The notes beneath the pieces were generated by a model. The model was not told the origin of the DNA, ran no database searches, and worked only from the letters and a program-made list of their open reading frames with translations. From the NCBI GenBank assembly GCA_027493955.1, contig JAOSJT010000001.1:4388552-4452551 (forward strand): DNA of 64,000 bases, read 5' to 3'. Positions 46,412 through 60,113 of this stretch are shown here, in pieces (within the stretch, counting starts at the first letter, position 1; each line of letters begins with the position of its first letter). Both the position numbers and the translations under genes were made by a program. Source of the DNA: Bacteroidia bacterium. Its GTDB lineage: Bacteria > Bacteroidota > Ignavibacteria > SZUA-365.

Positions 46412-49400
46412 TTACAGTTTCGTGATGCGCTTTACCAGTACGGTTTCCGGCAGTACGGCGACGAAATAGTACACCCCCGCTTTCCGTCCGGAGAGGGAAT
46501 ACTGAAATTCACCGCGCTCATCGGTGCTCCGTGCTTCGTGAATGACTTCCGAGCGGCCGAGTACATCGAAGAGATACAGGGTAAACGGCTGCGTGCCGAT
46601 GTCGTTGATGCGGATGCGCAGCACATCGCTTGCCGGCTCGGGCCAGGCGTGGAGTGTCGGTGCGCCAGCGAGTGGGGGATTGCCGGCGACGCCGAGTACG
46701 GTGACGTCGTATATGTCGGATACCACCGAGCAACCACGCGAACTCGTCACCCGAACCTGATACGACCCGGGTTGTGTCACAAGAAGCGCGGGCTGCGTCG
46801 CTCCGGGTATCTCAACGCCATTGCGGAACCACTGGCATCGGTAGCCCTCCGGTACGCTCAACACGTCGCCCGTCCGTCGAATCACCGGCTTGTCGGGCTT
46901 GAGGAAACTGATGACGGTCACCGGATCGGATTGACCCCAGCAACCGTGACTGTCGCGCACGCGCACAAAGTATTTGCCTTCGATGCGGACAACGAGTTCG
47001 GCCGTGGTCGCGCCGATGTTCCAGAGGTACTCCTCGTAACTGCCGTCCACACCGAGCACGACCGAATCGCCGACACAGAACCAGAGTGTGCCGCCGGGAG
47101 TGATCATGGGCTTGGGAGCGGGACGCACGCTCACGTGCAGTGTGTCGGAGCGTCCGATAAGTCCGTCGGAACGTCGGACAACACAGAAATAGGACCCGGC
47201 GTTTTTCACTGCGATCTGCTGTGTCTGTTGTCCATGAGACCAGTTGTAGGTCAGATACCCGCTGCCGGCATCGAGAATCACAGAATCACCCTGGCAGATC
47301 TCGAGCGGTCCGGATGCTGTCAGCCGTGTGCTGAAGGTTGGCGGCGGCAATCCGGGTATGCGCACATTGACGGTGCAGACGGTCGTGTCCTGTCCCGCAG
47401 CCCAGCTCCTGGCGGTCAGCGTGTATGACTTCTCCGATGAGATAATCGGATGCTGAAGCATCCAGTTCACACCCCCGCTCTGCCGCGGAGCGAGAGTCGC
47501 GGGCAGGAGCTGCTTTGTATAGTTTCCGGGCGTCTCCGAAGGCGCTAATTCGAATTCCGGAGGCAGTTGCAGCGATGTCCACACGGTGTCGCTCTGAGTG
47601 CCACCGTTGTTCGTCACCGCCACGCTCAATGGAAAGGGCATTGGTGTATAGCGTACGGCGGCGGTGTCCGCAACGATCTGTGGCACAGATACGGCGCATG
47701 AAAGAACCGTACCCGCCTGTGAAACGACGATGCGAACGCAGCAGGTGACGTCGGGGTGATAGTCGAAGCTGCCGCGTATGCAGAGTTCGATGGTGTCTTC
47801 GGACGTCCGGGGTTTGGCCGCGACCTGCCAGCTTACGGTGGCGAACATCCCCGGATCGATATGTGGCGGGGAGGGAGTCTGTGTGTCCGTACTCGGCGAA
47901 AGCAGCTCGATGTCGTCTGCATCATAGAGGATGCGGAAACGTGCGTTTGCTGCCGTAGCGTCGCCGGTATTATCGAAGCGCCCCGTGATGGTAAAGGGAT
48001 TCTGCTGGTATTCCTTGCTGTCCTGTCGCCAGTCGAGTCGGGGTGGAGCCGTGACGGAGCAGGATATGGTCGGGAGAGTGGGAGAGAGACATACACGTCC
48101 GGTATCCATTATCGGAATGAAGCAACCCTGCGAGAATCCCGCATTGATGGGGCGTATATCCCGGCACAGCGTATCGCTGCGCTGTTGCGTGGAGAACGCC
48201 AGGTTCATCAGGCGTCCGTAGCCATTCACCAGAACAGGGGCCGTGCTTTCTATTGTGACACCTCCGGTCACGGGCGTCGCAGTTATCGGGACGCCATCCA
48301 GCAGCGATCCAGGCGGAGCGGTTACAGATTTGAATTGAATGATGGAGGTATCGTATGTAAGCGTGTAACGCAGCGGATAGAAGTTGTTGCCGTGAATACT
48401 TGTGCGGAGATTGAGCGGCAGGGTGAAATCGTCGCCATGTCTGGCGAAAACCTCGCCCAGATCGAGGTGGAGGGGGGAAAATGTTGTGCTGTCCAGCGGT
48501 GCGCGAAAGGACTTCGTTTTCGTATCCGAGCCATTACAGTAATCCCGCAATTGCAGCTCGACGTTGCGCAGGCCGCCATCCGCGCATTGGGCGTCATAGG
48601 TGATCATGCACTCCTGAAAGTGTTGCGCGAGCAGTGTGCCGATCTCTACATACGCGCCGACAAGCTGCGAGGCAGTCGGGACGTAATAGTATCTGCCCCC
48701 GGTGAGCAGCGCGATAAGCTCCAGCTCCACGCTGTTGATGCTCGAGCCCAGGCCGATGGTAAACACACGGATGCGGTGCCGGTTTGCCAGCGCGATGATT
48801 TCCGCCGGCTGCCGCGAGGATGAATTGTCGCCTCCATCCGTCATCAGTATCACCGCGCGGACCGGATTCAGCCCATTGTTGATCAGCTCGATCAAACCAG
48901 CATAGCCGCCGTCCCACACCGCCGTCCCACCACTCGCCGGCAGTGCGTCCACGGCCGAGTGCAGCATCGGTTTATTGCTCGTCATCTGCTGATACACTGT
49001 CACCACGTGCGTGAACCAGATGATCGATGCCTCGTCGACTACACCATCCATGAGGTCAATGAAACCGTGCCCGGCTTGCTTTGCGGCCGCGTTGCCGGCG
49101 CCCATCATCGAACCGGACGCATCGAATACGAGCGCCACGGAAAAGGAGGATCGTACCGTGGGATCAGGGCACCAGAGCTGAAAATTCGGAACTTCCACAT
49201 TGTTCTCGAACACGCGAAAGTCCTGCGCCGACACGGTGAAATCAAGTGTGCTGTCGCAACTCGCCGAGAAGTACAGTTCAATGGTCGGCCAATTCACACC
49301 GATGCGTTTGAAATTCAGCGCCGGCTGACCGTGCATCGTCACGAGCGGGGCGCACAAACCGATGAGAAGCATACACACGGATATCCGTCGTGCTGTAGAA

Positions 49401-49423
49401 CAGAAACTGCCGGACCTCTCCAT
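46412..49423 (-). CDS. Secreted VWA-domain protein B with Ig-like repeats and T9SS tail
   Basis: 1003 residues from ATG 49423 (GTG 49426 is in frame just upstream). Same plan as protein A: signal peptide (about residues 1-32, ending MHGQ), VWA domain with DASGS at 101-105, SGGTAVWDGG and LMTDGGD (about 95-290), beta domains, Ig repeats of the type CQGDSVILDAGSGYLTYNWS, and a sorting tail (HAWPEPASDVLRI, YLFDVLGRSEVI, KAGVYYFVAV) ending KRITKL. It is about two-thirds identical to A over the VWA region by eye. A canonical sigma-70-like promoter lies 40 bases upstream of its start. Product expected at the surface. Confidence 0.85.
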   Translation of the reverse strand: MERSGSFCSTARRISVCMLLIGLCAPLVTMHGQPALNFKRIGVNWPTIELYFSASCDSTLDFTVSAQDFRVFENNVEVPNFQLWCPDPTVRSSFSVALVFDASGSMMGAGNAAAKQAGHGFIDLMDGVVDEASIIWFTHVVTVYQQMTSNKPMLHSAVDALPASGGTAVWDGGYAGLIELINNGLNPVRAVILMTDGGDNSSSRQPAEIIALANRHRIRVFTIGLGSSINSVELELIALLTGGRYYYVPTASQLVGAYVEIGTLLAQHFQECMITYDAQCADGGLRNVELQLRDYCNGSDTKTKSFRAPLDSTTFSPLHLDLGEVFARHGDDFTLPLNLRTSIHGNNFYPLRYTLTYDTSIIQFKSVTAPPGSLLDGVPITATPVTGGVTIESTAPVLVNGYGRLMNLAFSTQQRSDTLCRDIRPINAGFSQGCFIPIMDTGRVCLSPTLPTISCSVTAPPRLDWRQDSKEYQQNPFTITGRFDNTGDATAANARFRILYDADDIELLSPSTDTQTPSPPHIDPGMFATVSWQVAAKPRTSEDTIELCIRGSFDYHPDVTCCVRIVVSQAGTVLSCAVSVPQIVADTAAVRYTPMPFPLSVAVTNNGGTQSDTVWTSLQLPPEFELAPSETPGNYTKQLLPATLAPRQSGGVNWMLQHPIISSEKSYTLTARSWAAGQDTTVCTVNVRIPGLPPPTFSTRLTASGPLEICQGDSVILDAGSGYLTYNWSHGQQTQQIAVKNAGSYFCVVRRSDGLIGRSDTLHVSVRPAPKPMITPGGTLWFCVGDSVVLGVDGSYEEYLWNIGATTAELVVRIEGKYFVRVRDSHGCWGQSDPVTVISFLKPDKPVIRRTGDVLSVPEGYRCQWFRNGVEIPGATQPALLVTQPGSYQVRVTSSRGCSVVSDIYDVTVLGVAGNPPLAGAPTLHAWPEPASDVLRIRINDIGTQPFTLYLFDVLGRSEVIHEARSTDERGEFQYSLSGRKAGVYYFVAVLPETVLVKRITKL

Positions 49424-49462
49424 CACGTTCTCCTTGGCGAATCAGAAGATATTATGACAACA

Positions 49463-49491
49463 TTGTAGGGAAAATGTCCTTCAATGTCAAG
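49463..49491 (-). promoter_or_regulatory. Promoter of VWA gene B
   Basis: On the minus strand, TTGACA (49491-49486) is followed after exactly 17 bases by TACAAT (49468-49463). This is a canonical -35/-10 pair. The transcript would begin near 49455, about 30 bases before the ATG at 49423. It partly overlaps the start of the ACRCAGA repeat. Confidence 0.75.
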
Positions 49492-49582
49492 ACCACAGAA
49501 GACACAGAAAAAACAGAACACGGAACGCAGAACGCAGAACACACAGAAAAAACAGAACACGCAGAAGAAGAGAAGAGGCAGA
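49490..49582. repeat. ACRCAGA-type short repeats upstream of VWA gene B
   Basis: Seven-base units CAGAACA, CGGAACG, CAGAACG, CAGAACA and related AACACAG/AAAAACAG blocks, closing in GAAGAAGAGAAGAGG, match the segment at 46208-46262. A translated frame on the minus strand (FFCVFCFFCVFC-like) is an artefact of the repeat. Confidence 0.8.
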
Positions 49583-49621
49583 AAGGGTCTCTCTTCAATG
49601 CGTTTGTGGGACATCAACAAT

Positions 49622-49670
49622 CGTCAAACGTAAGTCGTCAAACGTAAGTCGTCAATCGTAAATCGTTACG
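49622..49670. repeat. Seven-unit heptamer array running into the end of VWA gene C
   Basis: Units CGTCAAA, CGTAAGT, CGTCAAA, CGTAAGT, CGTCAAT, CGTAAAT, CGTTACG in strict 7-base phase. The gene C stop (minus strand, 49654-49652) lies within the fifth unit, and the last codons of gene C are made of repeat. Confidence 0.85.
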
Positions 49671-52666
49671 CGTTTCATCAGCACAGTCTCACGCAGCAGG
49701 GCCACGAGGTAATACACGCCGGGAACGCGGCCCTGGACGGAGCAGGTAAAACTCGCGCCGCCGTCGGGCAGCACACCGCTGTGAATCAACTCCGACCGGC
49801 CAAGCATGTCGTACAGAGCTACAGTGACGGGTTGATTTCCCGTATCCGCGAGCTCGATGCGCAGAATATCGGTCGCGGGTTCCGGCCAGACGTGCAGCAG
49901 GGGACCCGTTGTAGCCGGCGGGACATCATCGGTGTCCAGCACAGTGACGTCGAACGGGTCCGACAGCGCCGAGCAGCCGTTCATAAAGCGCACACGCAAC
50001 TGATATCTTCCGGTATTTTTTATCTTGATCACGCTGTACCCCGAATCGGGGAGAAGCACGCCATCGCGATACCAGTAGAACCCGCCGATGTCGCCCTGGG
50101 CAATAAGCCAGTCGAGATTACGGCGTATTCCGGGTTTGGACGGAACGGTTTTTGTGGTGACAATCACCGTATCGGAATACCCCTCGCAGTCATGACTGCT
50201 GCGCACCGTAGCGTAAAATGCGCCTGCCGAATGCACAGTGATGATCTGCTCCGTCGCTCCGTTGCTCCAAAGATAGCTCATGTAACCGCCGCCTGCATCG
50301 AGTTGCACGGAATCGTTCTCGCACATCGGAAGCGATCCATGCACAGCGATGCGTGGCGAAGGTGCGTCAATTGCCGTTACCCTCACCGTGTCCGAAATAC
50401 CGATGCGTCCGTCGCTGTGCTCCACGTTGCAGTAATAATTTCCACCTCGCTTTACGGTCAGGAGTCGATCGCGTGCACCGTTGGACCAGCGGTAAGTGGC
50501 GTAGCCCGCTCCTGCATCCAGCAAAACCGAGTCGCCCTCGCAGAATAGCGTGGATCCCAGAGCTGTGAGCGTAAAAGGGAAGGTCGCGACAGGGAGGCCC
50601 GGAATGCGTACAGCGACGGCGCAGTGCTTCGAGTCGGAATTTGCGGTACGTATCAATACCGATACGATGTATTCTCTGTCTGTATTGCTGCGCGGATGCC
50701 GCAGTTGCCATGTGACTTTTGCCGTTTCGTGTGCTCCCAACGTCGGCGGGGAGAGCAGTTTTCTGTAGGAATCGGGCGCATCAGGTCCGGCCAGATCGAG
50801 TTCCATCGGCACGTCTATTGTCGCCCATACGGAATCCGTGCGGGAAGGCCCGAGATTCGTTGCCTCGAGGGTTACCGGGAAGGGCATAGGCGTATATCGC
50901 ACATTCGCACTGTCGGCGGCGACCTCCGTTGCGGACAGCCGGCAGTCAAGGATGGGGTCCATTCGCGGGACATATACCTTCGTGCAACAAACGACATCGG
51001 GATGATTGTCGAATCGCGCCGTGATGCATATCCGCGTTGTATCACCTTCTGTTCGGGGGATGGCTGTCAGGGGCCAGTTGACGTTTTCGAACGAACTCGC
51101 GGCGATGATGCCGGTGCTTCCCGGTTTTGTATCGGTACCCGGGAAATACAACCGAACGTCTGCAGTGTCGTAGGTGATTGTGTAGCGTGCTTGCTTCGCA
51201 TCGCTGTCGCCACGATTGGAAAAGTGCGCGAGTACCGTGAAGGGATTCGGCGAGTAGTCAGGGTTTCCTCTTTCCCAGTCGAGACTGCTCGGAGCACTGA
51301 TATCACAATGGATGATCGGCGTTCCGGGGGCGATGCAGATACGACCGTCCGCTATTACCGGGATGAAGCAACCCTGTTCGAATGTGGCGGCTACGGCTTT
51401 CACCTCCGTACACGCCGTATCCGGAACAATTTTCGTCCTGAAATGGAGATCGAGTAGAGTACCCCCCTGTGTAAGCAGCTTCGGCGTGGTTGTCCGTATC
51501 GTTGCACCGTCAGCCAAGGGCGTCCACGATACGGGTACCCCGGCCAGCAAGGTCGTGTCGGATGCCGTCACGTTGTCTAGCTCCACCACAGCGGTGTCGA
51601 AGACGACGGAGAACTGCATGGGATAGAACATCACCACGTCTGCGGGTGCGAGCAGACGCAACGGAACGGTCATTTCCATCCCTGCGCCACGGATCGAATG
51701 CTCCAAAGCCATGTATAGCATGGAAAACGTCGAAGAATCCATCGACGCCTTGAACGTCGTCGTTTCGGAAAGTGAAGTACCACACACATCGCTTACCTGC
51801 ACTTCAATGGTGCGATGCGCTCCGTCCATGCAAGGACTGGTATAGGAAATTCTGCACTCCTGAAATCCCTGAAAGATGATGGTCGAGATTTCCATATAAA
51901 TGGCGGCCAACTGGCCTGCATTCGGTGTCTGATAGTATCGGCCACCCGTTGCATCCGCGATGAACTCCAGGGAACCGGAATTGATTGCTGTTCCGAGACC
52001 GATCGTGAAAACACGGATTCGGTGTCGCTGCGCAAGAGCGACCACTTCCTCCGGTGTACGTGTGGACGAGGCATCGCCCCCATCGGTCAGCAAGATCACC
52101 GCCCGGCATGGATTCGTCGCGTTGTTGATGAGTTCGATCAATCCGCCATAGGCACCGTCCCATGCCGCCGTGCTTCCCGTGGCGGGCAACACGTCAACGG
52201 CGGAGTGTAAAAGTGTCCTGTCGCGGGTCATCGATTGCATGAGGGTGACATCGGAATTGAACCAGAGCACGGCGGCTTCGTCGACCTTCCCGTCCAGAAG
52301 ATCGACGAACGCGTGACCGGCTTGTTTCGAACCGAGGTTTCCGCTTCCCGCCATAGAGCCGGATGCGTCGAAAACCAAGGCCACCGATACGGCGCAGCGT
52401 ACGTTCGGGTCGGGGCACCACAGGTCGGATGGGACCATCGGTACCCCGTTTTCAGTGATGCGAAATTGTTGCAACGTTGCGTCGTACACCGGCATGCCAT
52501 CGCAAGTGAGCCGATAGAAGACCTCAACCTTCGGTCCGTTGACAATTAAGTTCCTGACGGTAAACCGTGGTTGTGCCTGAACCGTCGTTCCCGATACCAG
52601 AAACAGCAACAGAAATACAGGAAGCGAGAGGGGTTTGAAACGGAAATTGGGTGCTGTGCTTGTCAT
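49652..52666 (-). CDS. Secreted VWA-domain protein C with Ig-like repeats and T9SS tail
   Basis: 1004 residues from ATG 52666, preceded by GGAGAGAGGATTGA. Signal peptide 1-31 (TTVQAQ). The VWA domain (about residues 94-290) has DASGS at 100-104, GSTAAWDGA and LLTDGGD. Beta domains, three Ig repeats (CEGDSVLLDAGAGYATYRWS and copies), then a sorting tail (HVWPEPATDILRI, YDMLGRSELI, VPGVYYLVAL). It ends KRVTIYD, where A and B end KRVTRL and KRITKL. The last codons come from a heptamer array, so the original end appears to have been replaced. First gene of the three, likely with its own promoter. Confidence 0.85.
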   Translation of the reverse strand: MTSTAPNFRFKPLSLPVFLLLFLVSGTTVQAQPRFTVRNLIVNGPKVEVFYRLTCDGMPVYDATLQQFRITENGVPMVPSDLWCPDPNVRCAVSVALVFDASGSMAGSGNLGSKQAGHAFVDLLDGKVDEAAVLWFNSDVTLMQSMTRDRTLLHSAVDVLPATGSTAAWDGAYGGLIELINNATNPCRAVILLTDGGDASSTRTPEEVVALAQRHRIRVFTIGLGTAINSGSLEFIADATGGRYYQTPNAGQLAAIYMEISTIIFQGFQECRISYTSPCMDGAHRTIEVQVSDVCGTSLSETTTFKASMDSSTFSMLYMALEHSIRGAGMEMTVPLRLLAPADVVMFYPMQFSVVFDTAVVELDNVTASDTTLLAGVPVSWTPLADGATIRTTTPKLLTQGGTLLDLHFRTKIVPDTACTEVKAVAATFEQGCFIPVIADGRICIAPGTPIIHCDISAPSSLDWERGNPDYSPNPFTVLAHFSNRGDSDAKQARYTITYDTADVRLYFPGTDTKPGSTGIIAASSFENVNWPLTAIPRTEGDTTRICITARFDNHPDVVCCTKVYVPRMDPILDCRLSATEVAADSANVRYTPMPFPVTLEATNLGPSRTDSVWATIDVPMELDLAGPDAPDSYRKLLSPPTLGAHETAKVTWQLRHPRSNTDREYIVSVLIRTANSDSKHCAVAVRIPGLPVATFPFTLTALGSTLFCEGDSVLLDAGAGYATYRWSNGARDRLLTVKRGGNYYCNVEHSDGRIGISDTVRVTAIDAPSPRIAVHGSLPMCENDSVQLDAGGGYMSYLWSNGATEQIITVHSAGAFYATVRSSHDCEGYSDTVIVTTKTVPSKPGIRRNLDWLIAQGDIGGFYWYRDGVLLPDSGYSVIKIKNTGRYQLRVRFMNGCSALSDPFDVTVLDTDDVPPATTGPLLHVWPEPATDILRIELADTGNQPVTVALYDMLGRSELIHSGVLPDGGASFTCSVQGRVPGVYYLVALLRETVLMKRVTIYD

Positions 52667-56384: not shown

Positions 56385-58208
56385 TCAGGGTGTGTGACGG
56401 ATCGCTCCGTACAGCACCGTGACGCGCATGTTCGTGCGTTTCCAGATGCCGTCTTCACGTTCAAGTCGCAGTACGGGGGTGTAGACCTTGACCTTGACCG
56501 TGTTTCCGCTCGCTTGCACCGCCGTGTATTCCAGGGGAACATCCACAGCACTCCTGTTTTCGTATCGTTTTTTCAGGCTGTCCAAAGCGGGGTCCAGCGC
56601 TATGCGCAAGGTATCGGCGGGCTGATCCGGCGGCGTGTACACAAAGGTCAGGGTGTCGAGCGTGCCGTTGACGCTGTAGCCGGCGTGATCCGACGTCGCG
56701 GAATTCTTCGGGGTGCGTGCGAAGTAATACATCCCGGGAAACATGCGGTCGTATCCCTGCACATCAATCGTTTCACCCTCACGGCTTTCATAGCGCAGTT
56801 CGTCGTCGGACTGCGCCGGCTGAGCCGCGATGTACTGAATGCCCAGGTCGGCGGCGATGGTGGATGCGTCTTTCCACTCCGAATACGTCACGGATGAATC
56901 AGCTCTGAGCGATGTGTCGAACCACGATTCTATTGCGGTATAACCGTGGATTTCATGCAGGTACTGCAGGACCGCGCTGATTTCGCGCGCGTCCTCCCGC
57001 GGTACCCCTTTTGTCGCTTTACGGATGCTGCCGTCGTCGAGCATGCTGTTTGCTTCGAGAAGGTGCTTCAACCGCTGTGCCTGGCTGCTCTCGGAGATAG
57101 AGAACGCTCCCCAGGGACCGAATGACACGAGGAGGGTGATGGCGCACAAGGTAAGCGGTATGGCTTTGATGCTTTTCGCTTTGCTGAAAACGAAGTAGAG
57201 TACCATTATCCCGAGCCACACACCGGTGACAACGGCGATGTAGCGGCTTTCCGTCATGCCATAGTCCGAAAGCCGGCGCAGGACGGCGAGAAAATACACC
57301 ACGACAAAGGGCGCGAGCACGATGTAGAACCAGCGCGAGGCCAGAGCGATCCAGCGAGAACCCTCCCGTTCACGAATGGGATGCAGCAGCAGCAACGCGA
57401 ACATGCCCGCGACGGAGAAACCGAGAATCAGCCGGGCAATCCAGCCGTGCGGCCAGGTCCAGCCGACCATGATTTTCCCGGTGTACGCGACAAGGATAAC
57501 GAGATAGATGACGATCAGCGGGAGCAGCACGTACTGCGAGAAAATTTTCAGACCCTTCGGATAGTCATCCGACTGATCCAGCGCATCCAGATCTTCCGGC
57601 ACTCCTGCCAGAAAGAACCAGGTGTTCAGCAACCCGAGAAGCATTATCCACAGCTGGAAATAGCGCTTTCCGTGTATCGTCACATCGAACAGATTCTCCA
57701 CGGCCGCCAGCGCGATGGCGAGGCCGGCCCAGAGAACGACGGTGAACAATCCCGCCGTGAGCAGCCGGAGGAAGAGTGTTTTGTTGAAATGCCAGAACCC
57801 ATTGACCTGCCCCCGCCGCAGCCAGGGTGCGATGGCAACGAAGAGATGCAGCGCCACCGCCAGCATGAAAAAGCGAATGATATGCAATTGCGGTGCAATC
57901 GGCAGATTGTCGGGCAGCGTCAGGGCGTAACCAGCCAACAGGATCAGGGCGCCGATCTGCGTTCCGCTCGATGTGCCCCGGCTCCAACGCTGTTTCTCCG
58001 CAAGCAGCGTGAGCCCTGTCAGGAACGGAACAGCGAGGACGGCGACGAGGAGCACGCGAAAGGCCCACAGCGGTTCGGGTTGAGCTTCGCTGTTGGCGAG
58101 CAGCAGCGCCATCACGGTGCCGGTCGACGCCGCCAGAAGAACGAAGGGGAAGCGCCGCAGTGTCCGCAGAGCTTCGTGCGTGATCTGTTCGAAAGAAGGA
58201 AATTTCAT
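56385..58208 (-). CDS. DUF4153-family membrane protein
   Basis: 607 residues from ATG 58208 (MKFPSFEQITHEALRT); the longer open frame upstream has no supporting features. About eleven membrane helices in the first ~410 residues, with the family-like pattern of aromatic pairs after charged loops (SDDYPKGLKIFSQYVLLPL, about residues 214-232), then a soluble C-terminal domain (about 430-600). The DUF4153 family has no established function. It is separated from the upstream minus-strand gene by a terminator, so it probably has its own promoter in 58209-58317, which I could not locate. Confidence 0.75.
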   Translation of the reverse strand: MKFPSFEQITHEALRTLRRFPFVLLAASTGTVMALLLANSEAQPEPLWAFRVLLVAVLAVPFLTGLTLLAEKQRWSRGTSSGTQIGALILLAGYALTLPDNLPIAPQLHIIRFFMLAVALHLFVAIAPWLRRGQVNGFWHFNKTLFLRLLTAGLFTVVLWAGLAIALAAVENLFDVTIHGKRYFQLWIMLLGLLNTWFFLAGVPEDLDALDQSDDYPKGLKIFSQYVLLPLIVIYLVILVAYTGKIMVGWTWPHGWIARLILGFSVAGMFALLLLHPIREREGSRWIALASRWFYIVLAPFVVVYFLAVLRRLSDYGMTESRYIAVVTGVWLGIMVLYFVFSKAKSIKAIPLTLCAITLLVSFGPWGAFSISESSQAQRLKHLLEANSMLDDGSIRKATKGVPREDAREISAVLQYLHEIHGYTAIESWFDTSLRADSSVTYSEWKDASTIAADLGIQYIAAQPAQSDDELRYESREGETIDVQGYDRMFPGMYYFARTPKNSATSDHAGYSVNGTLDTLTFVYTPPDQPADTLRIALDPALDSLKKRYENRSAVDVPLEYTAVQASGNTVKVKVYTPVLRLEREDGIWKRTNMRVTVLYGAIRHTP

Positions 58209-58317: not shown

Positions 58318-58344
58318 CACCGCCCGCGGATAGTGCGGGCGGTG
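58318..58344 (-). terminator. Terminator of the YafK-like gene
   Basis: CACCGCCCGC (58318-58327) and GCGGGCGGTG (58335-58344) pair perfectly around a 7-base loop, 38 bases downstream of the minus-strand gene that ends at 58382. The stem is the same as at 60088-60113. Confidence 0.7.
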
Positions 58345-58381: not shown

Positions 58382-59086
58382 TCACTTGCCGGCGAAGTGT
58401 GCTTCCTGTACTTCAGCCGCCGGTGTGTCGTGAATAATCCATGTGCCGTCATCATCAAAGCTGTAGTGTTGCGGGATGCGCTTCACGATGGTCAGATAAT
58501 CCTCCAGCGGCTTGAGCCTTCGGATGCTGTCGTCCAGTGCCTCTTCGGTCGCCCAGGGCTGCACATTTCTGCTGGCCTTGAGACGTTCGCGCATTTCGAC
58601 TGGGATGTTGCCGGGAAGAATGACGAGTGTTATGCGCGGGACTTCCACCGCGGTCGGATCGCCTATCTGTTGATGAATGCGTTGCAAAAATGCATCATCG
58701 AGGGAAATGCTGTTGCGGTCGAGTGTCCGGCCTTTGACAGTGTATCGTTCGAATGTTCCGGGAATGGTCTCGAAGGTGAATCCGAGCTGTGTGCTGCCCT
58801 CATTGTCCGTCAAATGGAGAGGGAATATGCCTTCCGGAAGACGGCCGTCGCCAATGATGCTCGTTTTGCTCCCCGCAGGGAAGGTCCGCCAGATTTTGCC
58901 GTATTCCACCGCTTCGTAGCGGTCGAACTGATTCCGAATCATCAAAGTCGCTGCGCCGTCATATTTCCATACGACGATCAGTATGTCATTGGAGGAATCG
59001 TGTGTCCGGGCGGTTGAGGTAGAGTGAGAGAGGCCTCCTGCAAAGAGAACAAGAATTGCAGTGAGGATGATGCGATGGTTGTTCAT
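58382..59086 (-). CDS. YafK-like L,D-transpeptidase homologue lacking catalytic residues
   Basis: 234 residues. Signal peptide about 1-25. Residues 36-145 follow the YafK-type L,D-transpeptidase layout: IVVWKYDGAATLMI, then GDGRLPEGIFPL (79-90, matching the family GDGxTPEGxY). In the active-site segment YTVKGRTLDRNSISLDD (115-131), the expected His-Gly and Ser-x-Gly-Cys positions fall, without gaps, on Lys118-Gly119 and Asp123-Arg-Asn-Ser126. The C-terminal part (151-225: RITLVILPGNI, LKPLEDYLTI, DDDGTWII) also matches the family's tail. The fold appears kept and the catalytic Cys and His lost, so it is probably a pseudoenzyme that binds peptidoglycan or a partner. Confidence 0.65.
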   Translation of the reverse strand: MNNHRIILTAILVLFAGGLSHSTSTARTHDSSNDILIVVWKYDGAATLMIRNQFDRYEAVEYGKIWRTFPAGSKTSIIGDGRLPEGIFPLHLTDNEGSTQLGFTFETIPGTFERYTVKGRTLDRNSISLDDAFLQRIHQQIGDPTAVEVPRITLVILPGNIPVEMRERLKASRNVQPWATEEALDDSIRRLKPLEDYLTIVKRIPQHYSFDDDGTWIIHDTPAAEVQEAHFAGK

Positions 59087-59390: not shown

Positions 59391-60064
59391 GTGCGCGTGG
59401 TATACACTTTGAAACACGAGAGTTCCGAGATAGACAGAAAAGTCAGTGATACCAGGTATGCATGGATAGAAAGTGATGCGCGTCGGTACGCGCATGAATC
59501 GGAGAGGTCGGAGGCACAGTACGGCGCGTTTCTCGGACATCGGAAACAGACTCCGTCTCCCGCGCGGATACTCGATGTGGGAGCGGGTCCGGGGTCGCTC
59601 ACCGCGCGCATAGCGATGTGTTTTCCCTCGGCCGCTTTCACGGCGCTGAAAGTATCACCCGTAATGATGCAGTAGGGTAGAGACTATATCGCCCAGCGCG
59701 ATTTACAGTGTCGCGTAGAGTATGTGCAGGTGGACGCGGGTCCGTGGGCGCGATGAATGATATCGGACGCTATGATCTTATCTGCAGTTGTTTTTCCATG
59801 CATGAGTGGAAAGACCCGCGCCGCGTCGTGATGCAGCTTCGCAGCATACTCGCTCCGGGAGGCAGCATGCTCCTGCGCGACCTTCGCCGGATTCCATGGC
59901 TGACGTGGCTTCCGCTGCGGCTTCCGATGCTCGAATCAATTCGTGCCTCCGACACCGTGGAGGAAGTGCGGAAGGAGTTGAGCCGATTGCCCGATTCAGA
60001 TGTAACGGTGCAAGCGGATGCCCCCTTCATGCTGACAGTGAAAATCCGCGCGACGGGACTGTGA
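59391..60064 (+). pseudogene. Class I SAM-dependent methyltransferase, disrupted
   Basis: The first frame (from GTG 59391) runs to TAG at 59673-59675 and carries the AdoMet loop RILDVGAGPGSLTARIA. Beyond the stop, the same frame still reads as methyltransferase (GRDYIAQRDLQCRVEYVQVDA), then ends at TGA 59754-59756. The rest of the enzyme continues in another frame from about 59753 (MNDIGRYDLICSCFSMHEWKDP, then LAPGGSMLLRDL) to 60064. So it needs both one nonsense change and one frameshift to be read through. Either the gene is decaying, or the assembly has errors here. A terminator follows. Confidence 0.8.
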
Positions 60065-60087: not shown

Positions 60088-60113
60088 CACCGCCCGCACA
60101 TTCGCGGGCGGTG
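60088..60113 (+). terminator. Terminator after the methyltransferase pseudogene
   Basis: CACCGCCCGC (60088-60097) pairs with GCGGGCGGTG (60104-60113), 6-base loop, followed by TTGTTT. It is identical in stem to 58318-58344. Confidence 0.75.

Follow-up and report, generated by a model that had tools for sequence, protein, structure and literature searches.

YafK/DpaA enzymes free proteins from peptidoglycan. The Escherichia coli enzyme DpaA, also named YafK or LdtF (8ikr; NF040599), is described in PMC10653827 as an amidase that detaches Lpp. In the docking model given there, Lys83 contacts the D-centre carboxylate of meso-DAP, and the paper treats this lysine as a distinguishing feature of DpaA and the L,D-carboxypeptidases. 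The K83A mutant was inactive, Y109A had 0.7% and Y131A 4% of the activity left, and the small fragments mDAP-Lys and mDAP-Gly were not bound by DpaA (PMC10653827).

YkuD domains without the catalytic cysteine are already known. An example is the second YkuD domain of LdtPae1 from Pseudomonas aeruginosa, which has QLGKIR in place of SHGCIR (PMC10434034); it is fused behind an active domain rather than standing alone, and it clusters with its own active domain and not with YafK. For Lpg1514 of Legionella pneumophila, a Cys-independent chemistry has been reported on a YafK scaffold, but this protein retains Cys174 and His166 (PMC13400389). The open-licence literature on YkuD, YafK and DpaA proteins yielded no description of a dead YafK subfamily of stand-alone proteins, and searches of the same literature for YkuD pseudoenzymes, D-transpeptidase pseudoenzymes and YkuD proteins in Ignavibacteria found none. 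As far as these searches show, the stand-alone dead YafK branch described here would be a previously undescribed pseudoenzyme of the fold.

The gene lies in a window of 64,000 nucleotides, the whole stretch of DNA that was analysed, from a genome consisting of one contig of 5,237,942 bases. The reading frame is open from an ATG start and encodes 234 amino acids plus the stop, exactly where the original prediction had placed it. The features of the gene are listed here with the evidence used for each.

58382-59086, minus strand: gene of the dead YafK/DpaA-type protein (reading frame and orthologues)
59009-59086, minus strand: signal-peptide-like N-terminus, residues 1 to about 26 (read from the sequence, cleavage site not predicted)
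58865-58867, minus strand: Lys74 in loop L1, the equivalent of DpaA Lys83 (alignment)
58829-58852, minus strand: turn motif GDGRLPEG, residues 79-86 (alignment)
58763-58813, minus strand: residues 92-108 at the site of loop L2, where NPxSxYHLSLxxNY, including DpaA Tyr109, is lost (alignment)
58736-58759, minus strand: loop L3, residues 110-117 (length count in the alignment)
58709-58735, minus strand: former catalytic loop KGRTLDRNS, residues 118-126, in place of HGxCxSxGC (alignments)
58319-58343, minus strand: strong hairpin 3' of the gene, without a T run (folding and terminator scan)

Family membership and predicted fold

By its sequence alone the window protein had no match in Pfam or NCBIfam, and its matches to PDB sequences were only at chance level. 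When the window protein and its five orthologues, the six dead rows of the following analyses, were combined into a profile, DpaA was not found among the PDB sequences. None of the six passed the Pfam cut-off for PF03734 (YkuD). NF040599 did not match the window protein, P0002, P0003 or P0006; the active proteins L032, L042 and L048 do match it, yet also score below its cut-off of 365 bits. Annotation pipelines based on Pfam or NCBIfam would overlook the dead clade.

The relationship became visible in profile comparisons. The six dead rows were aligned by hhalign with 29 active YafK proteins (alignment A3), which gave a probability of 98.9% with an E value of 3.4e-17 over residues 31-221. In single-genome searches the six-row profile scored active YafK proteins at E values down to 2.9e-12. 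The homology to active YafK is more than chance. The comparisons by column used alignment A4 with 32 rows (6 dead and 26 active), from which L014, L027 and L029 of A3 are absent. Five further proteins, L013, L015, L020, L021 and L024, were excluded from both alignments for their long fused C-termini; all five have HGx5GC.

The structure was predicted by AlphaFold from the six dead rows alone (pLDDT 66.5, pTM 0.66). DpaA (8ikr) was the sole PDB match of this model below an E value of 0.001 (1.9e-4), with a Z score of 8.6 over 151 residues, and L,D-transpeptidases and related carboxypeptidases ranked next. Because no active sequence entered this model, the match to DpaA was not imposed by the alignment; given its confidence and Z score, the model provides only moderate evidence for the predicted DpaA fold. 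With the 26 active rows added, the prediction rose to a pLDDT of 86.6 and a pTM of 0.79, in a model that leans on the active rows, and it matched DpaA with an E value of 1.8e-8 and a Z score of 14.2 over 181 residues at an rmsd of 4.3. The predicted structure has the YafK/DpaA fold, and a different fold did not emerge.

The original prediction had spoken of a YafK-family L,D-transpeptidase homologue. The family assignment was borne out, whereas DpaA/YafK, its nearest relative among the characterised proteins, works as an amidase and not as a transpeptidase (PMC10653827). Fold, length, the C-terminal helical tail and loop L1 with the equivalent lysine and GD..PEG are shared with DpaA. In contrast to DpaA, the dead protein has no counterpart of His135, Cys143, the oxyanion glycine and the L2 motif with Tyr109, its loop L3 has 8 residues against 16, and it is not detected by NF040599.

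Retained and lost parts of the active site

At the N-terminus, residues 6-19 are hydrophobic and residues 4-17 form a helix in the predicted model; the N-termini of the orthologues are likewise hydrophobic. This agrees with the signal peptide of the original prediction, although a signal-like stretch read from the sequence and a model helix are weaker than the "clear" signal claimed there.

DpaA positions are numbered as the chain index plus 18 in the PDB alignment, with which the letters of Cys143, Lys83, Gln86, Arg108, Tyr109, Lys130 and Tyr131 match. Lys74, which corresponds to DpaA Lys83, is invariant in 6/6 dead and 26/26 active rows. In DpaA it is the lysine of a GPK motif, and the window protein has GSK, with Ser as the middle residue. 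The family motif GDGxxPEGxx was correctly predicted to be kept, and its residues D80, P84 and G86 are invariant in all 32 rows.

Beyond this turn the picture changes. K118 stands at the position of the catalytic His, S126 at that of the catalytic Cys and N125 at that of the oxyanion-hole Gly. The ungapped pairing of His and Cys with Lys118 and Ser126 that had been proposed was recovered: HGSCVTVGC and KGRTLDRNS align without gaps in the profile-profile alignment and in MAFFT, so the pairing is not tied to one aligner. His and Cys are both present in 26/26 active rows and in 0/6 dead rows, and the Gly that precedes the Cys in the oxyanion loop is Asn in all six. Loop L2 is lost as well, with the N and the P of its NP each kept in none of the dead rows and the S in two. 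Of the YPN motif, the Y is found in 1/6, the P in 6/6 and the N in 0/6. Loop L3, measured as the stretch between the proline of YPN and the place of the catalytic His, has 8 residues in five dead rows and 16 in P0006, and 16-27 in the 26 active rows.

Up to the PEGxY turn, 9 of the 12 columns that are near-invariant in the active rows are kept in four or more of the six dead rows, whereas from loop L2 to just beyond the catalytic loop only 2 of 18 are kept. The loss is therefore regional. The Fisher test of this difference (p 0.0012) is only descriptive because the cut at the turn was set after the pattern was known.

Distribution, relation to active YafK and possible role

The dead protein was found in 6 of the 61 genomes searched, its own included, all of them from the bacterial family of the host, in which it occurs in 6 of 12 genomes. 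Searches with the six-row profile across the phylum (395 genomes) and the class (391 genomes) found no further dead members. The other matches of the profile were active YafK proteins, save three false ones (L028, L030 and L047) that were dropped after their translations had been read; they are of two kinds, a repeat protein and what we take to be GntR-like regulators. A pattern scan of the genome contigs gave three loci, whose proteins have the same sequences as the ones from G003, G008 and G005. So far, the dead clade is confined to one bacterial family in the sampled genomes. In the tree a branch with a support of 100/99 separates the six dead rows from the others, and the clade has a single origin. 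In none of the five orthologues are the catalytic positions occupied by His or Cys, as opposed to what a local error in the window would give. The window protein is thus dead by lineage, and the clade is very probably a conserved dead subfamily of YafK/DpaA.

The nearest active branch is that of the YafK enzymes specific to the host's bacterial family (L032, L049 and L050). In a second tree, calculated without L048 and P0006 because of their long branches, these three lie together with the dead clade on one side of a branch with a support of 93/80; this grouping is below the starred level and rests on long branches. The active trio keeps HGxCxSxGC, an L3 of 27 residues and the match to PF03734, all of which the dead protein lacks. 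L049 and L050 have the arginine of GDxR in common with the dead protein, and 23 of the 26 active rows have Gln there. The active YafK of G007, where a dead member is present too, is of the very divergent L048 type (G007:C21:8989-9513) with HGKCASSGC and the longest branch of the tree.

In the genome of the window, the active YafK gene (L032) is located about 9 kb upstream of the dead gene on the same strand. In G008 a fragment of an active YafK gene, ended by the contig edge, precedes the dead gene by about 1.3 kb on the same strand; it is 73% identical to the enzyme of G006. G006 has the two genes in the same orientation on one contig, the active one 64 kb downstream of the dead one. This proximity fits a local duplication, without proving it. 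An active YafK occurs in 5/6 genomes with the dead gene against 1/6 without it, a difference that is not significant (Fisher p 0.08). Since G003 is rated 100% complete and contains the dead gene without any active YafK match, the active enzyme is not an obligate partner. All 12 genomes of the family have some YkuD match at an E value of 0.01 or better.

Since the cutting residues are lost, part of the cell-wall-binding site is kept and the relatives are dead in the same way, the protein probably acts by binding or regulation and not as an enzyme. Most likely it would be a pseudo-amidase of the periplasm, able to bind stem peptides but not to cut them. We propose that it arose by duplication of the bacterial family's own YafK enzyme and that it would dock on the meso-DAP of the peptidoglycan stem peptides through loop L1 (K74 and GD..PEG), with no cleavage following. 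It may then occupy, mark or shield stem peptides or the bonds that anchor proteins to peptidoglycan, and may act as a competitor or modulator of the active YafK, whose gene is 9 kb away. The complete statement of a secreted dead YafK/DpaA paralogue, arisen by duplication, that docks on stem peptides without cleavage and tunes the active YafK falls just short of probable in our judgement, and its step of stem-peptide binding and competition is tentative. K74 is in the most conserved block, where conservation could be structural, and Tyr109, which is also needed in DpaA, is lost in the dead protein. The dead branch would also serve as a natural experiment for telling the binding parts of the DpaA site from the cutting ones.

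The chief rival explanation is that the fold was neofunctionalised, such that the old catalytic loop (xGxxLDxNxI) together with R67, R82, E113, Y115 and N125 forms a new site, for binding or for catalysis, that has nothing to do with peptidoglycan. These five residues are invariant in 6/6 dead rows and are absent or rare in the 26 active rows (N125, E113 and Y115 in none, R82 in two, R67 in three), and the loop has kept its length and gained a conserved LDxN, with the D in 5/6. However, the dead rows retain K74 and the greater part of the L1 block, invariance among only six sequences is weak evidence, and E113 and Y115 cannot be assigned with confidence to a loop because their columns are ambiguously aligned near the L3 gap. 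We regard a new site of this kind as unlikely. A combined version, in which a YafK amidase has become a secreted, non-enzymatic ligand-binding protein whose old meso-DAP pocket and new residues would read the state of the peptidoglycan and guard anchor bonds from the amidase encoded nearby, with LDxN as a new motif in the former catalytic loop, seems to us rather improbable. If it is true, the two proteins are a pseudoenzyme-enzyme pair that acts on peptidoglycan.

Another rival is a duplicate of YafK that is decaying under relaxed selection, with no present function. The dead clade does evolve faster than the active paralogue, with pN values of 0.41-0.51 against 0.26-0.30 for matched pairs from the same genomes. 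Identities are 23-57% within the dead family versus 54-60% in the active one (28 vs 57% for G000-G005, 30 vs 54% for G000-G006 and 41 vs 60% for G005-G006), and the gene is patchily present in its bacterial family. Against this, all six frames are open over at least 225 residues, pN is smaller than pS in 15/15 pairs (with pS near saturation), and the clade shares invariant residues of its own. A drifting gene would not stay open over the deep divergence within the clade, and we consider decay very unlikely.

A serine could have taken over catalysis, as S126 is at the nucleophile position and the YafK protein Lpg1514 turns over beta-lactams via Ser132 and not via Cys174 (PMC13400389). However, a Lys/Ser pair, which was to be looked for as a conserved feature, proved private to the window protein: the six rows have K/T/S/A/T/A at the His position and S/V/V/T/V/T at the Cys position, with Ser in only one member, and a Lys/Ser dyad was rejected. 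Another residue used by Lpg1514 is His166; its place eight residues ahead of Cys174 makes it probably the family His, which the dead protein has lost. The NPxS serine, which by its spacing we guess to be Ser132 of Lpg1514, is kept in 2/6 members and not in the window protein. A serine-dependent hydrolase is thus highly improbable. A sequencing error or local mutation of an active enzyme, for which nothing was found in favour, is refuted by the five orthologues from separate assemblies that are dead at the same positions, and the flanking loops are lost too.

Gene surroundings

The dead YafK gene apparently stands alone. Downstream, past the hairpin, a DUF4153 protein is encoded on the same strand (56385-58208); upstream are a broken methyltransferase on the opposite strand and then a CusA-like efflux gene. 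The segment 58290-58384 with the hairpin folds at -45.9 kcal/mol (z -3.2). Of the terminator that had been predicted for the gene, the strong hairpin is present and the T run is absent; a scan for terminators gave none with a T tail at this place. A sigma-70-type promoter was likewise looked for and not found, and the Rfam and tRNA scans of the window gave no match.

G000, G003 and G006 encode a VWA-type secreted protein near the dead gene. In G000 and G003 a large secreted protein is also encoded nearby, and its copy in the window is just below the Por_Secre_tail cut-off. Since these two families have 55 and 85 matches, respectively, in the window's genome, such neighbours say little, and a conserved neighbourhood was rejected as evidence. 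At 48449-52666 on the minus strand, large VWA-domain proteins are encoded in tandem, one of them weakly matching the sorting domain Por_Secre_tail.

The methyltransferase at 59391-60064 on the plus strand is split across two frames (59391-59675 and 59708-60064), and each part weakly matches a different half of Methyltransf domains, so it looks like a pseudogene. The hairpin at 58319-58343 has a near-identical counterpart at 60089-60112 with the same perfect 9-bp stem (ACCGCCCGC...GCGGGCGGT), and these are the only two exact copies of the 9-bp-stem hairpin in the 5.24 Mb genome. Judged by loop and flank, the two hairpins have opposite orientations, and together they enclose the dead gene and the broken methyltransferase. 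Perhaps the paired hairpins are a terminator pair or cassette relics.
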